From: a virus
Strand: one strand, 5' to 3'
DNA: 32,266 nucleotides
Virus record (IMG/VR): IMGVR_UViG_3300037285_000147
Coordinates: 1-32,266 of that record
The notes below the pieces were generated by a model. The model was not told where the DNA came from and did no database searches. It was given only the letters and a program-made list of their open reading frames with translations. Made by a program: the position numbers and the translations under genes. This document shows positions 1-9,163 of the stretch, one piece after another; position 1 is the stretch's first letter, and each line of letters opens with the position of its first letter.

Positions 1-236
1 AATATGGTAATGAAACAGAAATGGGTGTCAACGGATTCCGTCCATACCTTACAAAATGGGACAAGCATCCTGATCGTGATGATGCATGGGCTGCTGAAGA
101 ACGTGCAAAGATTGGTGACGAACGTTTCCGTCGTGAGCATGAATGTGTGATACATGCAACACTTTTAAAATTAATTGGTGAAAATGGTGAGTTTGAACAA
201 GAAATTGGTGAATTGTTTGAAACTATAGATGAATAA
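1..236 (+). CDS. terL: Terminase large subunit, N-terminal part (3' end of gene) fused to split-intein N-half
   Basis: The gene enters from upstream; its first complete codon here is at position 3. The visible extein (FRPYLTKW, then FRREHE) corresponds to the region of T4 gp17 just after the ATPase domain, around T4's FRQEH. At codon 144-146 the reading switches at a Cys into an intein N-half of 30 residues and then stops. TerL is the packaging motor that moves DNA into the prohead. This half lacks the nuclease domain, which is encoded separately at 1260-2351. I read it as one half of a fractured gene restored by protein trans-splicing, not as a pseudogene, because the second half resumes exactly at CEF with an intein C-half in front. 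The ATPase motifs lie outside the window. Confidence 0.85.
   Translation, partial: YGNETEMGVNGFRPYLTKWDKHPDRDDAWAAEERAKIGDERFRREHECVIHATLLKLIGENGEFEQEIGELFETIDE
144..233 (+). other. Split intein N-half of TerL (atypically short, 30 aa)
   Basis: The segment starts with the nucleophile Cys (block A, CVIHATLL) and ends 30 residues later at the stop. Conventional split inteins have about 100 residues in the N-half. Here the split lies between blocks A and B, and block B (TDNH) is in the C-half. This matches the layout of the AceL-TerL intein from Ace Lake metagenomes, whose N-half is about 25 residues. Block A is divergent: it has H-A-T where most inteins have G-D-T, so splicing activity is inferred rather than shown. 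Confidence 0.8.
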
Positions 237-268
237 GTTTGCATAGACACAATATAGAAGCAAACACA

Positions 269-1312
269 ATGAACAACACAAATTACATCACAAGCAAAAT
301 TGACCAAAAATCCTACTGTAAATCAAACGGACAATTTACTCGGCACCTGCGCCAGCATAACATTACATATCAAGGATATTATGAATTATATGAAACAGGC
401 ATATGTATGTTATGTTATTGTCAAAAATCGCTAACGTTTTACCAAAAATCAAATTCATATGCAAATAGTTGTGGTGATCCTATATGTGTAGGTAAAACTA
501 TATCTGCAACCAAGCAAAACTGGACAACCAAGCAGCGCGAGTTGGATAGTAAACACAAGAAAATTGCTGCATCAAATAGAACACCTGCGCAAATACAGGC
601 ACAAAAAGACAAGTCATCAGCAACAGCGCGTGCGAAATATGGTGTAGATTGGGTGACACAATCAGATGAATACAAGGCCAAATCCAAGGCTACCAAACTA
701 GAACGGTATGGCAATGAACATTATGCTGGGTGGGAAGCATCGGCCCATACAAATCGTAACAAAACCATAGTGGAGCAAGATGCGATAAATGATAAACGGC
801 GCGCCACAAATTTAGAGAGATTTGGTGTAGAAAATGTGTTTATGTTACCTAATAATAGTTCAAAGACAAATAAAGGTAACAGCTCTATCAAAGAATACAT
901 TACACCATCTGGTAAAGTTATTGGCATTCGAGGATATGAACATTTAGTGCTAGACATATTATTTAATGATTACAATGAAGATGAATTATACATACATGAT
1001 GACTTTGCTGAATATTCTATAGAAAGATTTGAATATCAGGCTGTAGACAGGAAACGACTTTATTATCCTGATATCTACATACCAAAAGAAAATTTAATTA
1101 TCGAAGTCAAGAGTGAATGGTGGTGGAATGGTAAGTTAGATGAGCGTTACCGCAATAGATTGGAAAACAATTTACGCAAGCGCCAATCAGTTATAGACAA
1201 GGGTTATAATTTTCAATTGTGGCTGTTTTCAACTAAATATACACATAGGATATTACATAATGACACCGATTTTCAAAGAGAACACAAAAAATTTAAAAGT
1301 ATTGACTGCTGA
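269..1312 (+). CDS. Intein-associated free-standing homing endonuclease (VSR/PD-(D/E)XK-like)
   Basis: This 347-residue protein lies between the two halves of terL. The N-terminal part has a Cys cluster (CMLCYC, then SCGDPIC) that could bind zinc. The middle carries repeated segments of the type ATKLERYGNEH and ATNLERFGVEN, often seen in phage endonucleases as DNA-contact repeats. The C-terminal part has the nuclease signature: GYEHLVLD, then YYPDIYIP, then LIIEVKSEW. I chose the ATG at 269 over a TTG at 239. Its last 53 bases overlap the start of the intein C-half gene in another frame. The position matches the fractured-gene arrangement of Dassa and colleagues (2009), where a new VSR-like endonuclease family lies between split-intein halves. 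It probably cuts uninterrupted terL alleles. Confidence 0.8.
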   Translation: MNNTNYITSKIDQKSYCKSNGQFTRHLRQHNITYQGYYELYETGICMLCYCQKSLTFYQKSNSYANSCGDPICVGKTISATKQNWTTKQRELDSKHKKIAASNRTPAQIQAQKDKSSATARAKYGVDWVTQSDEYKAKSKATKLERYGNEHYAGWEASAHTNRNKTIVEQDAINDKRRATNLERFGVENVFMLPNNSSKTNKGNSSIKEYITPSGKVIGIRGYEHLVLDILFNDYNEDELYIHDDFAEYSIERFEYQAVDRKRLYYPDIYIPKENLIIEVKSEWWWNGKLDERYRNRLENNLRKRQSVIDKGYNFQLWLFSTKYTHRILHNDTDFQREHKKFKSIDC

Positions 1313-1601
1313 CGGATATCAAAGTTTCAAAGGTATTCAATGTTTGGGTGAACGTCCAATATACCGGCTGGAATTTGAGAATGAAAATTGGATCGAGTGT
1401 ACTGACAATCATCAAATTTTCATTGACGACGGCACAAAAATCGATGCCGCCAAATTAAAAGTTGGTGACAATGTTATGGCATTGGGTGGCGACCTGGTAA
1501 TTATCAAAGCGTATTATACTGGTCGTATTGAAAAAGTATATGACTTGGTGGGGGTAGATGGTGGCAATCGGTTTTATGGTAATGACATTTTGGTCTCGAA
1601 T
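1260..1601 (+). other. Split intein C-half of TerL (114 aa, carries blocks B, F and G)
   Basis: Block B is seen as WIECTDNHQIF (T-x-x-H), block F as VYDLVGVDGGNRFYGND, and block G as ILVSN followed by extein Cys. Its N-terminus (NTKNLKVLTADGYQSFKGIQ) resembles, from memory, the start of the AceL-TerL C-half. The penultimate residue is Ser where His is usual, leaving Asn114 to cyclise without the common helper; some active inteins tolerate this. Long C-half plus 30-residue N-half makes this an atypically split intein. Confidence 0.8.
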
Positions 1602-2351
1602 TGTGAATTTATTGCCTTTGACGAAACTCTTATCAGTGCTATTTTCCTTAGTGAAATGGATATGGGTATGGAGCCCATGCGCAAGCATGGTCAGGTTCGC
1701 TGGTATGATAAAATTAGAGATGATCAAACATATTTGGTTGCACTTGATCCCAGCTTGGGAACAGGTGGTGACCCCAGTGCAATTCAGATATTCGCAATTC
1801 CTGGGATGCGTCAAGTCGGTGAGTGGCAACACAATAAAACCCCTATTCAGATGCAGATTAAAATTATGAGGGCAATCCTTGAAGAAATTGAGGAGGCTGC
1901 CCCCAATAGTGAACTGTATTATTCTGTGGAAAATAACACACTGGGCGAAGCAGCACTGGTGACAATTGAAGAAATGGGTGAAGAACACATACCTGGTACA
2001 TTCCTCAGCGAGCCTAAGAAAAAAGGCAAAGGCAGACGTTTCAGAAAAGGCTTCAACACCACCAACTCAAACAAGCTGGCATCATGTGCAAAGCTAAAGC
2101 GTTGGGTTGAAGAAAGCACAATGAAAGTGCGCAGTAAAAATCTTACTCGTGAACTCAAAACATTCGTAGCCCATGGTAACGGTTATAAGGCAAAAGAGGG
2201 TGAAACAGACGACTTGGTCATGGCAACCATCCTTGCAATCCGTATGGCCATGCAGGTCGCTCGCTACGATCCAGAAGCATTTGACGATTTGAAAGAAAGT
2301 TTCGACGACAGCGATCTCCGCCGTCCAATGCCCGTGGGCTTCTTGAATTAG
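1260..2351 (+). CDS. terL: Split-intein C-half fused to terminase large subunit C-terminal (nuclease) part
   Basis: Residues 1-114 are the intein C-half and the C-extein starts at Cys115 (CEFIAFDETLIS). The extein is the gp17 nuclease domain: D163 in YLVALDPSLG, E224 in YYSVENNTLG and D317/D318 in ETDDLVMAT fit the three acidic metal ligands of T4 gp17 (D401, E458, D542). This domain cuts concatemeric DNA at the end of headful packaging. An AGGA nine bases before ATG 1260 supports the start, which lies inside the endonuclease gene. The C-extein is 249 residues with no visible lesion. The stop overlaps the stop of the convergent GIY-YIG gene by a few bases. Confidence 0.9.
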   Translation: MTPIFKENTKNLKVLTADGYQSFKGIQCLGERPIYRLEFENENWIECTDNHQIFIDDGTKIDAAKLKVGDNVMALGGDLVIIKAYYTGRIEKVYDLVGVDGGNRFYGNDILVSNCEFIAFDETLISAIFLSEMDMGMEPMRKHGQVRWYDKIRDDQTYLVALDPSLGTGGDPSAIQIFAIPGMRQVGEWQHNKTPIQMQIKIMRAILEEIEEAAPNSELYYSVENNTLGEAALVTIEEMGEEHIPGTFLSEPKKKGKGRRFRKGFNTTNSNKLASCAKLKRWVEESTMKVRSKNLTRELKTFVAHGNGYKAKEGETDDLVMATILAIRMAMQVARYDPEAFDDLKESFDDSDLRRPMPVGFLN

Positions 2352-3175
2352 ATACCGTTAAGATAAAATCCGGCTTGATTGAATGTACATCCGATTAAGT
2401 CGGGCATATTTTTCCCAATAATTGAATTGTTCCCAATAACTTTATTTTGTGATTTGACGCAATATCCCCATACTGTAGCAGAATTTATTTTAAATGGTGC
2501 TGCCGCCGCCGCAGATGAGGAACCATGAAATTCACCCCATGGGGTCACGTAGGTGCCGTTGCTACTGGGATGGGCGTTATTTTTATACCAATCCGACATC
2601 TGTGCTCGAGTATTGTCGCTATGTGTTTTGCCCCAAAAAGAGTTGCCTTCTTGCTGCCGCATATCACTTAATTTTTGCTTGGTTTGGTCACTAGCAACAT
2701 TTCCCATGTTGGCTTCACTGAGATTTTTCTTCCAATTATCGTCCATACCTAATCGGCCAAATGTCCAACCTTTGGGCAATTCCTTGTCTCTGTGTAACTG
2801 GTGGGATTGTTCCCCGTCGTTGATCCATTTGGAGCCAGAAAAATGGTCAGATATTTTTTGTAAGGCAATGTAGTCATTATCCCTCACGCCAGGCACACAT
2901 CGGTTCAACCATCGTGTAGATGACACGACTTTTAATCGTTGTAAAACTTTCTTCTCCCAACGCCGGGCCGCTATTGAGTTGACAAACACCTTACGAACCT
3001 GTATAATGTCTGGGTCTCCCAACGATTCACGCAATTCCTTGACTATGTCACTGGATGTAAAGTACACTTTCCAAAAATCTTCTGGGTGGCAATTTTTAGC
3101 GTAACGAACGCCATAGTACCACCGGTCAATTGCTGACCAGCCGATGAGGTACGTGTAAGGTTGATAAATATTCAT
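2348..3175 (-). CDS. GIY-YIG homing endonuclease (Seg-like), copy 1
   Basis: This 275-residue protein starts with a GIY-YIG nuclease signature: PYTYLIG near residue 6, WYYGVRYA near residue 19, then NCHP. A helix with RRWEKKVLQRL follows and probably carries the acidic metal ligand. The middle (NLSEANMGN, TKQKLSDMRQQ, FWGKTH) looks like NUMOD3-type DNA-binding repeats. The ATG has a GGAAGGA site in front on the - strand. The gene sits tail-to-tail with terL, sharing four bases. Its N-terminus is clearly paralogous to the genes at 4769-5464 and 26964-27602. By analogy with T4 Seg and Mob proteins it probably promotes its own spread. The target site cannot be read from sequence. Confidence 0.85.
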   Translation of the reverse strand: MNIYQPYTYLIGWSAIDRWYYGVRYAKNCHPEDFWKVYFTSSDIVKELRESLGDPDIIQVRKVFVNSIAARRWEKKVLQRLKVVSSTRWLNRCVPGVRDNDYIALQKISDHFSGSKWINDGEQSHQLHRDKELPKGWTFGRLGMDDNWKKNLSEANMGNVASDQTKQKLSDMRQQEGNSFWGKTHSDNTRAQMSDWYKNNAHPSSNGTYVTPWGEFHGSSSAAAAAPFKINSATVWGYCVKSQNKVIGNNSIIGKNMPDLIGCTFNQAGFYLNGI

Positions 3176-4618: not shown

Positions 4619-4739
4619 GGTGTTATGGTAACACCACAAACGTTGACTGAACCCAAGAAATTGTGTATTATCAACGTATTACAAGAAATGATTTGTAATA
4701 CGTTTGTTAGAATAAAACAAACCAGGACCGCACTAGCGG
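4619..4739 (+). promoter_or_regulatory. Structured intergenic region with consecutive hairpins
   Basis: Four inverted repeats follow one another: 4619-4625 with 4629-4635 (7 bp, 3-base loop), 4675-4684 with 4693-4702 (10 bp, 8-base loop), 4702-4708 with 4716-4722 (7 bp), and 4728-4731 with 4736-4739 (4 bp). A further 7-bp pairing, 4640-4646 with 4671-4677, would compete with the second hairpin. No long T tract follows any of them, so simple termination is doubtful. Attenuation, RNA stabilisation or protection of the endonuclease start are possible. Confidence 0.5.
4643..4671 (+). promoter_or_regulatory. Sigma70-type promoter upstream of GIY-YIG copy 2 and gp32
   Basis: TTGACT at 4643-4648, a 17-bp spacer and TATTAT at 4666-4671. 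It fits the replication-gene promoter pattern in this window. It may be the original gp32 promoter, now separated from gp32 by the endonuclease gene. Confidence 0.5.
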
Positions 4740-4768
4740 AACACATTATGGCTATTATAGGAATGACA

Positions 4769-5464
4769 ATGACACCATACACATATTTAATCGGTTGGAC
4801 TTATTTAGATCGCTGGTATTATGGTGTGCAATATTCTAACAATTGTCATCCAAGTCATCTAATGGTTTCATATTTTACCTCAAGCAAATCTATAGCAGAA
4901 ATTATCGTTGATAACGGCTTACCAGACGTTGTGATGGTAAGAAAAACATTCAATGATATTAACAAAGCACGTGACTGGGAGCATACAGTCTTGCGTAGAC
5001 TTAATGTAATTAATTCACTTAAATGGATTAACCAAACAGATAATGTATCCTTCCCAGTGTTTTCAGGCCACTCCCATCACAATTATGGGAGAAAAGGCGA
5101 CCTGCATCCATTAACTGGAAAATCGCGGCCAGAAATATCAACTTCCCGCAAAGAAAAACAATGTTGGGTTGGCACTGACAATCCAATGTATGATAGTGTA
5201 CAAAAAGAAAAATCTATTGCTGCACGATCAGGCAACGCACATCATATGAAACGTAAAGATGTTAAAGAAAAGGTCAGTGGCACTAATAATTGGATTTTCC
5301 AAAGTCCTGAAGCATTAGCACAACGACAAGATCAGTTTAGACAAATGAATATTGCTAGGCGAGGAATGAAATATGAAAAAATTCCATGCCCGGTATGTCA
5401 AATTAACATGCCTAAGAATAATTTCAAAAGACATGTTAAAATATGTGAATTAAAACATTCATGA
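4769..5464 (+). CDS. GIY-YIG homing endonuclease (Seg-like), copy 2, with C-terminal zinc finger
   Basis: The GIY-YIG signature is at the N-terminus (PYTYLIGW, then WYYGVQYSNNCHP). The ATG at 4769 was chosen because paralogues start just before PYTYLIG and an AGGA lies seven bases upstream; longer starts at 4625, 4748 and 4763 exist. The middle has NUMOD-like repeats (GTDNPMYD, ARSGNAHHMK). The C-terminus ends in a C-x2-C-x11-H-x3-C finger (CPVC to KIC) that the other two copies lack. It lies directly before gp32, so it may have inserted into the gp32 leader. The gene is visibly more AT-rich than gp32. Confidence 0.85.
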   Translation: MTPYTYLIGWTYLDRWYYGVQYSNNCHPSHLMVSYFTSSKSIAEIIVDNGLPDVVMVRKTFNDINKARDWEHTVLRRLNVINSLKWINQTDNVSFPVFSGHSHHNYGRKGDLHPLTGKSRPEISTSRKEKQCWVGTDNPMYDSVQKEKSIAARSGNAHHMKRKDVKEKVSGTNNWIFQSPEALAQRQDQFRQMNIARRGMKYEKIPCPVCQINMPKNNFKRHVKICELKHS

Positions 5465-6938: not shown

Positions 6939-8036
6939 ATGGCAGCACGCGCGTTTGACGTAAGCAAATTTAGAAAAGGCATCACCAAGAGTGTTAAAGG
7001 CCTATCAGTGGGATTCAGAGATCCAAAGACATGGATTTCCACTGGAAACTTTACACTCAACAAATTAATCTCAGGCGATTTCAACAAAGGCGTGCCACTA
7101 GGCAAAGTAACGATGTTTGCTGGTGAGTCAGGATCAGGCAAAAGCTTTATCTGTTCTGGCAACTTGGTAAAATCTGCACAAGACTTGGGTATCTTTGTGG
7201 TCTTGATTGACTCAGAGAACGCATTGGATGAAAGCTGGTTGCATGCACTTGATGTAGACACCAGTCCTGAAAAGTTGCTGAAATTGAACATGGCAATGAT
7301 TGACGAAGTAGGTAAAGTTATCAGCGACTTTGTGGCACAATACCGTGCAGACTATGGTTCAACTGACCCAGACGAACGGCCCGAAGTGTTGTTTGTTATT
7401 GACAGTTTGGGCATGCTAATGTCGCCCACAGAGATCAATCAGTTTGAAGCTGGTGATATGAAGGGCGACTTTGGCCGCAAAGCCAAGCAGCTTAAAGCAC
7501 TTGTAACAAACTGTGTAAACATGTTTGGCGACTTGAACATTGGATTGGTGGCTACAAACCACACATACGCCTCACAGGATATGTTTGACCCAGATGACAA
7601 AATCTCTGGCGGTGCTGGTATGATTTTTGCCAGTTCAATCGTAGTTGCTATCAAGAAGATGAAGCTGAAAATTGATGCTGACGGTAACAAAACATCACAA
7701 GTACATGGTATTCGTGCTGGCTGTAAAGTGGTAAAATCACGCTACGCAAAACCGTTTGAATCTGTGCAGATTAAGATTCCATATGAAACTGGCATGGATC
7801 CAAGAAGTGGGCTTGTGGAATACTTTGAAGCCAAAGATGTGCTTACAAAATCTGGCAACAGCTTAGAGTACATCGACAAGGAAACTGGTGAGGTCTACAA
7901 GATGTTCCGCAAGGCTTGGGAGAAGAACAAGAATGAATATCTTGACGTGATCATGGCTCAATTTGATATGGTGGACCCAAATGCTGTTGTAGTTGTGGAA
8001 GAAGATGACGACGATGGCGAAGACGACGCAGAATAA
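6939..8036 (+). CDS. uvsX: UvsX RecA-like recombinase
   Basis: UvsX forms a filament on single-stranded DNA and drives strand exchange for recombination-dependent replication and repair. This 365-residue protein has Walker A GESGSGKS at 62-69, the Glu of LIDSENALDESW near 93, Walker B VLFVIDSLG with D155, and L2-like ATNHTYASQDMFDP followed by SGGAGMIF. The C-terminus is very acidic (EEDDDDGEDDAE), as in other UvsX/RecA proteins where it tunes DNA entry. Length is close to T4 UvsX (about 390). AAAGGAAAG precedes the ATG. Confidence 0.95.
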   Translation: MAARAFDVSKFRKGITKSVKGLSVGFRDPKTWISTGNFTLNKLISGDFNKGVPLGKVTMFAGESGSGKSFICSGNLVKSAQDLGIFVVLIDSENALDESWLHALDVDTSPEKLLKLNMAMIDEVGKVISDFVAQYRADYGSTDPDERPEVLFVIDSLGMLMSPTEINQFEAGDMKGDFGRKAKQLKALVTNCVNMFGDLNIGLVATNHTYASQDMFDPDDKISGGAGMIFASSIVVAIKKMKLKIDADGNKTSQVHGIRAGCKVVKSRYAKPFESVQIKIPYETGMDPRSGLVEYFEAKDVLTKSGNSLEYIDKETGEVYKMFRKAWEKNKNEYLDVIMAQFDMVDPNAVVVVEEDDDDGEDDAE

Positions 8037-8039
8037 TAG

Positions 8040-8068
8040 TTGACAAATTGAGCCAAACCCAGTAGTAT
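8040..8068 (+). promoter_or_regulatory. Sigma70-type promoter downstream of uvsX
   Basis: TTGACA at 8040-8045, 17-bp spacer, TAGTAT at 8063-8068. It would drive the two small genes that follow. The -35 is perfect and the -10 matches four of six. Confidence 0.55.
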
Positions 8069-8092
8069 TACATCATGCTAATTGGGTTTGGC
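8052..8092 (+). terminator. 10-bp inverted repeat after uvsX overlapping a promoter
   Basis: GCCAAACCCA (8052-8061) pairs perfectly with 8083-8092 across a 21-base loop. It lies in the uvsX 3' region and spans the -10 box of the promoter at 8040-8068. No T tract follows. It may protect the uvsX mRNA end or be an operator-like site. Confidence 0.4.
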
Positions 8093-8146
8093 CCAACATT
8101 TCTAATAAATACCCTGAATAATAAACTTCAGAACAAAGGGCACCAT

Positions 8147-8398
8147 ATGACATTACAAGCAACTGACAGCACTGCACTCGTTGAACTTTGGTCAGGCATT
8201 AAAAATTATGTGCCAGTGAAAGACCAACGGGCCGCCGCCGAACAATTTATTGCCAATATTGCTGACTCAGGGTTAGTAGACCTTGACGTGGACAGTGACC
8301 ATCTTTATGGAATTTGTGATACGTTTGACAAAGTATTACGGCAGTATCTTGAAGACAATGGACACGAACAAGAAGATCACAATGACTGGAACGAATAA
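8147..8398 (+). CDS. Small acidic conserved hypothetical protein
   Basis: Starting at ATG 8147 this gives 83 residues; a longer frame opens at 8075 but runs through the promoter and hairpin. The protein is acidic (VDLDVDSDHLYG, ending EDHNDWNE) and probably helical. No family was recognised. Its last base is the first of the following ATG, so the two genes are translationally coupled. Location between uvsX and further replication genes suggests a replication or recombination accessory role, which is an inference. Confidence 0.65.
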   Translation: MTLQATDSTALVELWSGIKNYVPVKDQRAAAEQFIANIADSGLVDLDVDSDHLYGICDTFDKVLRQYLEDNGHEQEDHNDWNE

Positions 8399-8859
8399 TG
8401 GCTGGATGGTACAACAAGGTAAAGAATAATATCAGTGATATTGTTCCTGCCCTTGTATTTTTTGAAAAAGAGCTGGACGCTGCCAAACCAGAGACATATA
8501 TGAATGGCAATCTGGAACGCAACAGCAGAGAAATTCCTGGCAGTATTGCATGGAGATTTGGCCAATTACAGGAAGTAGAGGCAATCCTTGAGCACCTGAA
8601 CATTGAGCTACGTAAAATCCACCACAAGCATTATCGCAAATATCTAGAACATTACAACAAAGTGTTGAGTAGCCGTGATGCAGACAAGTTTGCAGCAGGC
8701 GAACAAGACCATGTGGATATGGAAAACATCATCAATGAAGTGGCACTGGTGCGAAATCGCTATATGGCACTGATGAAGGGCCTGGAAGCCAAGCAGTATC
8801 AGCTGGGTCACATTGTGCGATTGCGGGCAGCAGGCCTGGAAGATATTACTTTAAGCTAA
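8398..8859 (+). CDS. Conserved helical protein of the uvsX region, possibly UvsY-like
   Basis: A 153-residue, mostly helical, charged protein. Distinct segments are NLERNSREIPGSIAWRFGQLQEVEAIL, LNIELRKIHHKHYRKYLEHYN and a C-terminal LRAAGLEDITLS. Size and helical build are close to T4 UvsY (137 residues), the mediator that loads UvsX onto gp32-coated DNA, and it is near uvsX. I cannot align it with T4 UvsY by eye, so the symbol is withheld. It is coupled to the preceding gene. Confidence 0.65.
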   Translation: MAGWYNKVKNNISDIVPALVFFEKELDAAKPETYMNGNLERNSREIPGSIAWRFGQLQEVEAILEHLNIELRKIHHKHYRKYLEHYNKVLSSRDADKFAAGEQDHVDMENIINEVALVRNRYMALMKGLEAKQYQLGHIVRLRAAGLEDITLS

Positions 8860-8867
8860 ATGAGTTG

Positions 8868-8896
8868 TTGACAGCATGGCATCTTGATGCTATATT
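8868..8896 (+). promoter_or_regulatory. Sigma70-type promoter
   Basis: TTGACA at 8868-8873, exactly 17 bp, TATATT at 8891-8896. It is followed by AGTAAGCAAAAAGGAAA, a leader and ribosome-binding sequence that recurs before the ATPase gene at 10100. Confidence 0.7.
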
Positions 8897-8923
8897 CAAC
8901 AAGTAAGCAAAAAGGAAATGAAC

Positions 8924-9163
8924 ATGGAACAGTATTTTAACCTTATCGAGTCCGACCAACCGTGCGTTGAAGATAACATGTGGGTGTTGACCACAAACGA
9001 AGATATTTATATCCAAGTGTTGAGCGACAGCACATACTTTGTGTACAACGATATGGACGAAGTTGGCCCCGCCGACACCATGCGAGAAGCTATGATAATG
9101 GCTCTAGCTTCCGACTTGATGGAGGAATTTGCTGCCGTATTTACAGAGGCTGACGCATCATAA
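8924..9163 (+). CDS. Small acidic hypothetical protein
   Basis: A 79-residue acidic protein (start 8924 is seven bases after AAAGGA; 8918 is possible). It contains MWVLTTNEDIYIQVLSDSTYFVYND, which looks like a short beta-sheet, then an Ala/Met-rich helix. No family recognised. It has its own promoter, which suggests early expression. Confidence 0.6.
   Translation: MEQYFNLIESDQPCVEDNMWVLTTNEDIYIQVLSDSTYFVYNDMDEVGPADTMREAMIMALASDLMEEFAAVFTEADAS

Follow-up and report, generated by a model that had tools for sequence, protein, structure and literature searches.

Cat, with its C-terminal half CatC, is an engineered consensus of atypically split inteins of TerL, the large subunit of the terminase. 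The sizes reported for the N- and C-terminal halves (intein-N/intein-C) are 25/104 residues for AceL, 37/115 for GOS and 30/104 for Cat (PMC11766414), and a review gives homing endonucleases as the presumed agents by which contiguous inteins became fragmented (PMC11766414). Here we analyzed the virus record IMGVR_UViG_3300037285_000147 (hereafter the window, which is the whole linear record of 32,266 bases), in which the terL gene is found in two pieces within the first 2351 bases. As in AceL, GOS and Cat, the interrupted protein is TerL, and a short intein-N is combined with a long intein-C (30/114) that holds block B. Judging from sequence comparisons and structure models, the intein in this terL is very probably a class 1-like member of the AceL/GOS/Cat TerL family that is mobile and atypically split, and it is predicted to splice in trans. 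The present analysis adds the nuclease gene lying between the halves, evidence for transfer, the split point as fixed by a cis relative and a series of states at the same site.

Anatomy and family membership of the split terL

The first piece of terL is the open reading frame (ORF) 3–236, which is open at the first bases of the record and reads GDERFRREHE up to the junction, followed by CVIHATLLKLIGENGEFEQEIGELFETIDE and the stop codon; the second is ORF 1260–2351, whose N-terminus is MTPIFKENTKNLKVL and whose C-extein starts at 1602 as CEFIAFDETLIS (CEFIAFDE). The initial annotation had described a terL in two ORFs, broken 30 residues after an intein-like Cys and resuming at 1260 with 114 intein residues and a CEF extein, and its coordinates and counts were confirmed, as was the location of block B in the C-half (ECTDNH, Table 1). 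The phrog_36964 match of piece one lies before the Cys and that of piece two after residue 113. The N-extein was aligned with the intein-free TerL of the relatives L016–L019 right up to the exact junction, and the C-extein shares about 90% identity with the corresponding region of intein-free L016. An unbroken terL elsewhere in the genome, which the initial annotation had raised as possible counter-evidence, was found neither in the window record, which has a single terL C-half, nor in the relatives L003 (168 kb) and L004 (145 kb), whose contigs contain the broken gene only.

When intein-C was compared with the PDB, CatC (6dsl) was the best match (phmmer, E=1.5e-13), followed by VidaL (E=0.002). 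Its AlphaFold model (predicted local distance difference test, pLDDT, of 79) gave Cat 6dsl_B as the top Foldseek match (E=9.5e-6, 36% identity), and the Pfam family Intein_splicing matched at E=1.6e-4, below the cut-off. With a relative as the query, the CatC alignment continued across the junction into C-E, indicating a shared C-extein start. The similarity to the AceL-TerL class that the initial annotation had set as a test beforehand was thus found in the CatC match, in the Foldseek match and in the same C-E start. In the alignments, the class 1 residues Cys1, block B Thr and His, block F Asp, the C-terminal Asn and Cys+1 are all present in the window. These results support the assignment of the window intein as a diverged member of the AceL-TerL class in the same TerL site.

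The position of the break was located by means of a cis relative. In L107 (IMGVR_UViG_3300047667_001377), TerL and the same intein, inserted where it is in the window, are encoded in one continuous ORF of 668 aa without a nuclease gene; this intein is 55% identical to the window intein-C, has the same Asn and Ser in place of histidines (see below), and its N end aligns with the window intein-N. A model of the 149-residue L107 intein plus Cys+1 showed a confident HINT domain (pLDDT 91.7, predicted TM-score, pTM, 0.84), for which Foldseek returned solved inteins throughout, VidaL first (E=6.4e-9). The alignment used for this fold consisted of intein-C rows only; the intein-N rows slid to block B in MAFFT. 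The sole segment below pLDDT 50 is residues 30–33, where the window intein-N ends and intein-C begins. The L107 fold with this disordered loop indicates that the two window halves correspond to one HINT domain broken in a loop. L107, together with L025 (a split form described below), locates the break but gives no date for it.

A group I or group II intron joining the two ORFs at the RNA level would also account for a divided gene, as terL introns occur in phages (PMC10448857, PMC12350094); however, intein residues are coded on both sides of the break, would survive removal of an intron and match solved inteins, so that this explanation is extremely unlikely. The window had no Rfam match, including group I/II introns, and no tRNA was found in it by a tRNA search, and the RNA intron was dropped on these grounds.

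Predicted splicing and evidence for function

In the proposed mechanism, TerL-N with intein-N would be made as one protein and intein-C with TerL-C as another, and the short intein-N would dock on intein-C after translation. Cys1 would then attack, the N-extein would be transferred to Cys+1 and Asn114 would cyclise, yielding TerL joined seamlessly at RREHE-CEF and releasing the intein. Such splicing would have to run without the usual block F and penultimate histidines.

Several points weigh against this interpretation. The record does not reach the N-terminal part of TerL. Of the search of both halves proposed in the initial annotation, the 114-residue half gave the CatC match, but the 30-residue intein-N alone found only pentatricopeptide-repeat noise and no meaningful match in the PDB, because it is too short; intein-N of L025 aligned with CatN 6dsl_A at E=0.29, which is suggestive only. 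The ratio of nonsynonymous to synonymous substitution rates (dN/dS) of intein-N, 0.18–0.40, is noisy over 30 codons. Asn stands at the block F His position (F:13) and Ser at that of the penultimate His in the window, L002, L003, L004, L025 and L107, all remaining aligned relatives retaining at least one of the two histidines, and block A of the window reads HAT, the common GDT being lost. In the split PolB16 intein, little or no splicing remained when the penultimate His was mutated (H182Q; PMC10189870). On the other side, block F and penultimate His are classed in reviews as assisting, less conserved residues that are not obligatory, and splicing without the penultimate His is known (PMC4031507).

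The missing histidines and the degenerate block A would fit a decayed intein, namely an inactive relic in a broken, unused terL. However, intein-C is under purifying selection (dN/dS 0.08–0.17), as is the nuclease gene between the halves (0.15, compared with L004), the histidine loss is fixed across a clade that is about 50% divergent, with the cis form L107 among its members, and the 145 and 168 kb relatives, which need terL for packaging, have no second copy; a relic is thus unlikely. Since the split falls near the boundary of ATPase and nuclease, TerL might instead act as two separate proteins, an ATPase half and a nuclease half assembling non-covalently with the intein as a passenger, but separate subunits would have no use for two intein halves, and these are conserved along with Cys1, Asn and Cys+1, making this very improbable. 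A trans-splicing intein continues to be the preferred interpretation.

The nuclease gene and transfer of the cassette

The initial annotation was right about the anatomy of the halves but left unmentioned the gene between them, which is central to the system: a free-standing homing-endonuclease-like (HEN) gene, whose 3' end overlaps the start of intein-C by 53 nt, so that the intein-C start codon lies inside HEN in another frame. Its product is 62% identical to the HEN at the matching place in L004. A PD-(D/E)xK-like motif, PD-(x10)-EVK (YYPDIYIPKENLIIEVK), was read directly. With DUF7487 and PD-x10-EVK, the window HEN falls outside the EDxHD/Vsr-like family; a Vsr-like motif was seen, by eye, only in the HEN of L003 and the second HEN of L008.

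Comparison of the window with L002 at the DNA level showed about 90% identity in intein-C and 74% in the flanking extein, with a drop at the splice junction (by blocks: 87–95% from inside HEN, at 1061, through intein-C, and 65–83% in the extein, with the drop from 1601). Synonymous divergence (dS) of intein-C was 0.45, whereas synonymous sites of the extein were saturated (proportion of differing synonymous sites, pS, 0.80); without the HEN-overlap region, dS of intein-C was 0.49 and the contrast with the extein was unchanged. L003 and L004, compared in the same way, showed no contrast between intein and extein (pS 0.76 in both). In the extein trees, the window was sister to the empty-site L016 (support 96/92 for protein, 99/98 for DNA), and its intein was nearest L002; a forced extein clade of window and L002 was rejected by the approximately unbiased (AU) test (p=0.006 for protein, 0.010 for DNA). 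The dS contrast, the extein tree and the AU tests together show at the sequence level that the cassette moved between terL alleles in the past. Upstream of 1061, identity of the window HEN to that of L002 was only 42–68%, indicating that HEN is a mosaic. The adjoining HEN presumably drove this transfer: the separate nuclease would cut intein-free terL alleles of co-infecting phages, and intein-N, nuclease and intein-C would be copied in as a unit.

States of the terL site among relatives

About 10 further split-intein loci were found beyond the window, and a scan of genome contigs gave one relative. The initial annotation had proposed a new natural member of a rare class; the membership holds, but the class is more common than proposed, given these loci and the PX29 isolate (see below), which had already been annotated. 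Halves of 30 (N) and 114 (C) residues recur in the independent contigs L003 and L004, and more distant examples were seen in L008, L025, L108 and L124. An assembly artefact or a frameshift in an ordinary gene could be suspected from a single metagenomic record with terL at its edge, but has practically no probability in view of the same split in L003 and L004 and of the other HEN states in L008, L025, L108 and L124; the recurrence of the split ruled it out.

The site was found in a range of states. It is empty, with RREHE/CEF (slash, junction) or a close variant uninterrupted, in L016–L019, L022–L024 and most of the 80 nearest TerL relatives, the sequence being exact in L016–L019, and it holds the cis intein in L107. 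The intein is split without HEN in L025, whose two genes share a few bases, and also in L124, L125 and L127. In L108 and L110 it is split around a 131-aa remnant of the HEN C-terminal domain (47% identical to the window HEN over 127 aa), and in L109, at the start of its record, a still shorter remnant lies between the halves; in these three the nuclease decays while the split persists. A HEN of the window type is found in the window, L002 and L004, a different, longer HEN in L003, and both types in tandem within one split intein in L008 (2086–4997). The halves are farthest separated in L105 (contig CASEYV010000001.1), where they are 6.5 kb apart (278–1354 and 7885–8976). The split position thus appears constant while the nucleases change. 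The deep branches of the intein tree did not resolve, so that no order of cis and split states can be taken from it.

The HEN remnants are located at 4712–5104 in L108 and 1857–2249 in L110, with the intein halves intact around them, and the second HEN of L008 has a Vsr-like motif and a Mom/GNAT-like C-terminal part. Between the L105 halves are a 1031-aa tail-sheath-like ORF, an exonuclease-like ORF and two DNA-methyltransferase-like ORFs; although deposited as a bin of an uncultured bacterium, this record resembles a jumbo phage. The intein-C of L002 apparently starts with GTG, not ATG, at 379–381 inside its HEN gene.

That the clade splices without either C-terminal assisting histidine, and that the two-part element homes as one cassette with a separate, swappable nuclease gene, is in our estimation an evenly balanced proposition. 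If true, the graded series, from empty to split with halves 6.5 kb apart, would show a fixed split point with nucleases coming and going, and perhaps also a break able to arise before any nuclease or to persist beyond it. With several states at one terL site and a measured transfer into a lineage nearest an empty-site extein, the order of fragmentation becomes directly testable. Split inteins with a short intein-N are valued as tools for protein labelling, and few natural examples have been characterised; the clade offers several diverged natural candidates, some of them without both usual histidines.

Coordinates of the locus and side observations

Table 1. Features of the split terL locus in the window
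Feature	Position	Strand	Remarks
TerL N-extein end	3–143	+	47 residues visible, ending FRREHE; phrog_36964 terminase large subunit, E=2.1e-10
Intein-N, 30 residues, CVIHATLLKLIGENGEFEQEIGELFETIDE	144–233	+	Cys1 at 144–146, stop 234–236; conserved in L003 and L004
HEN gene, free-standing, homing-endonuclease-like, 347 aa	269–1312	+	ATG at 269; Pfam DUF7487, E=9.8e-33; PHROG 'homing endonuclease', E=1.6e-9
AGGA, Shine-Dalgarno-like	1247–1250	+	9 nt upstream of the intein-C start codon, within the HEN gene; read directly
Intein-C, 114 residues, MTPIFKEN...GNDILVSN	1260–1601	+	CatC 6dsl_B match; out of frame with HEN
Block B, T-D-N-H, assisting Thr and His	1401–1412	+	T and H invariant in 9 aligned intein-C
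Block F/G, NRFYGNDILVSN	1566–1601	+	Asn replaces block F His, Ser replaces penultimate His, terminal Asn kept (alignments)
TerL C-extein, nuclease domain, from Cys+1 (CEF...)	1602–2351	+	Stop 2349–2351; phrog_36964, E=6.9e-52

Two further homing-endonuclease-like ORFs, 2348–3175 (−) and 4625–5464 (+), lie near terL in the window; phrog_37840 is common to both, and GIY-YIG-like motifs were seen by eye. The former has a NUMOD3 motif (E=3.1e-9) and matches a PHROG homing endonuclease.

Other arrangements of terL were observed in passing. In L085 (2127–4762, IMGVR_UViG_3300002307_000092), terL is seemingly three genes with two tandem atypically split inteins and no HEN, at the sites ISLLY/C...CDEFAF (Walker B) and RREYG/C...CEF. 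The terL of Campylobacter phage CP21 (L098, 106–4413, NC_019507) seems to carry two contiguous inteins and a third that is atypically split around an ORF; the CP21 annotation names none of the three. In the Krischvirus phages kaaroe (L096) and JK32 (L099) and in Vibrio phage VP-1 (L101), terL is two overlapping ORFs with endonuclease-like sequence fused behind intein-N, the site in L096 being Walker B (DEC/...CAF).

Comparison with known systems

The window C-extein opens with Cys+1-Glu as in CatC, whereas the penultimate intein residue is Ser in the window and His in CatC, and block A is HAT in contrast to the GDT of AceL, GOS and Cat. The overlap of HEN with intein-C may also set the window apart from these three. 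Dassa et al. in 2009 reportedly described fractured genes with split inteins and EDxHD/Vsr-like homing endonucleases, in which the inteins were split at the usual site. The window resembles them in that a free-standing HEN gene, on the strand of the host gene, interrupts that gene and its intein, but its HEN is of the DUF7487, PD-(D/E)xK-like type and its split is N-terminal. An isolate, Aeromonas phage PX29, has terL split at the corresponding site (gp17A/gp17B, NC_023688) with N- and C-intein and endonuclease annotated ('17A putative N-intein / 17B GIY-YIG endonuclease and C-intein' in the public annotation); unlike in the window, its GIY-YIG endonuclease shares a single ORF with the C-half, to which it is fused, and there is a penultimate His, and its intein-C is about 30% identical to that of the window. 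Since AceL, GOS, Cat and PX29 are already known, the window intein is a new member and not a new kind.
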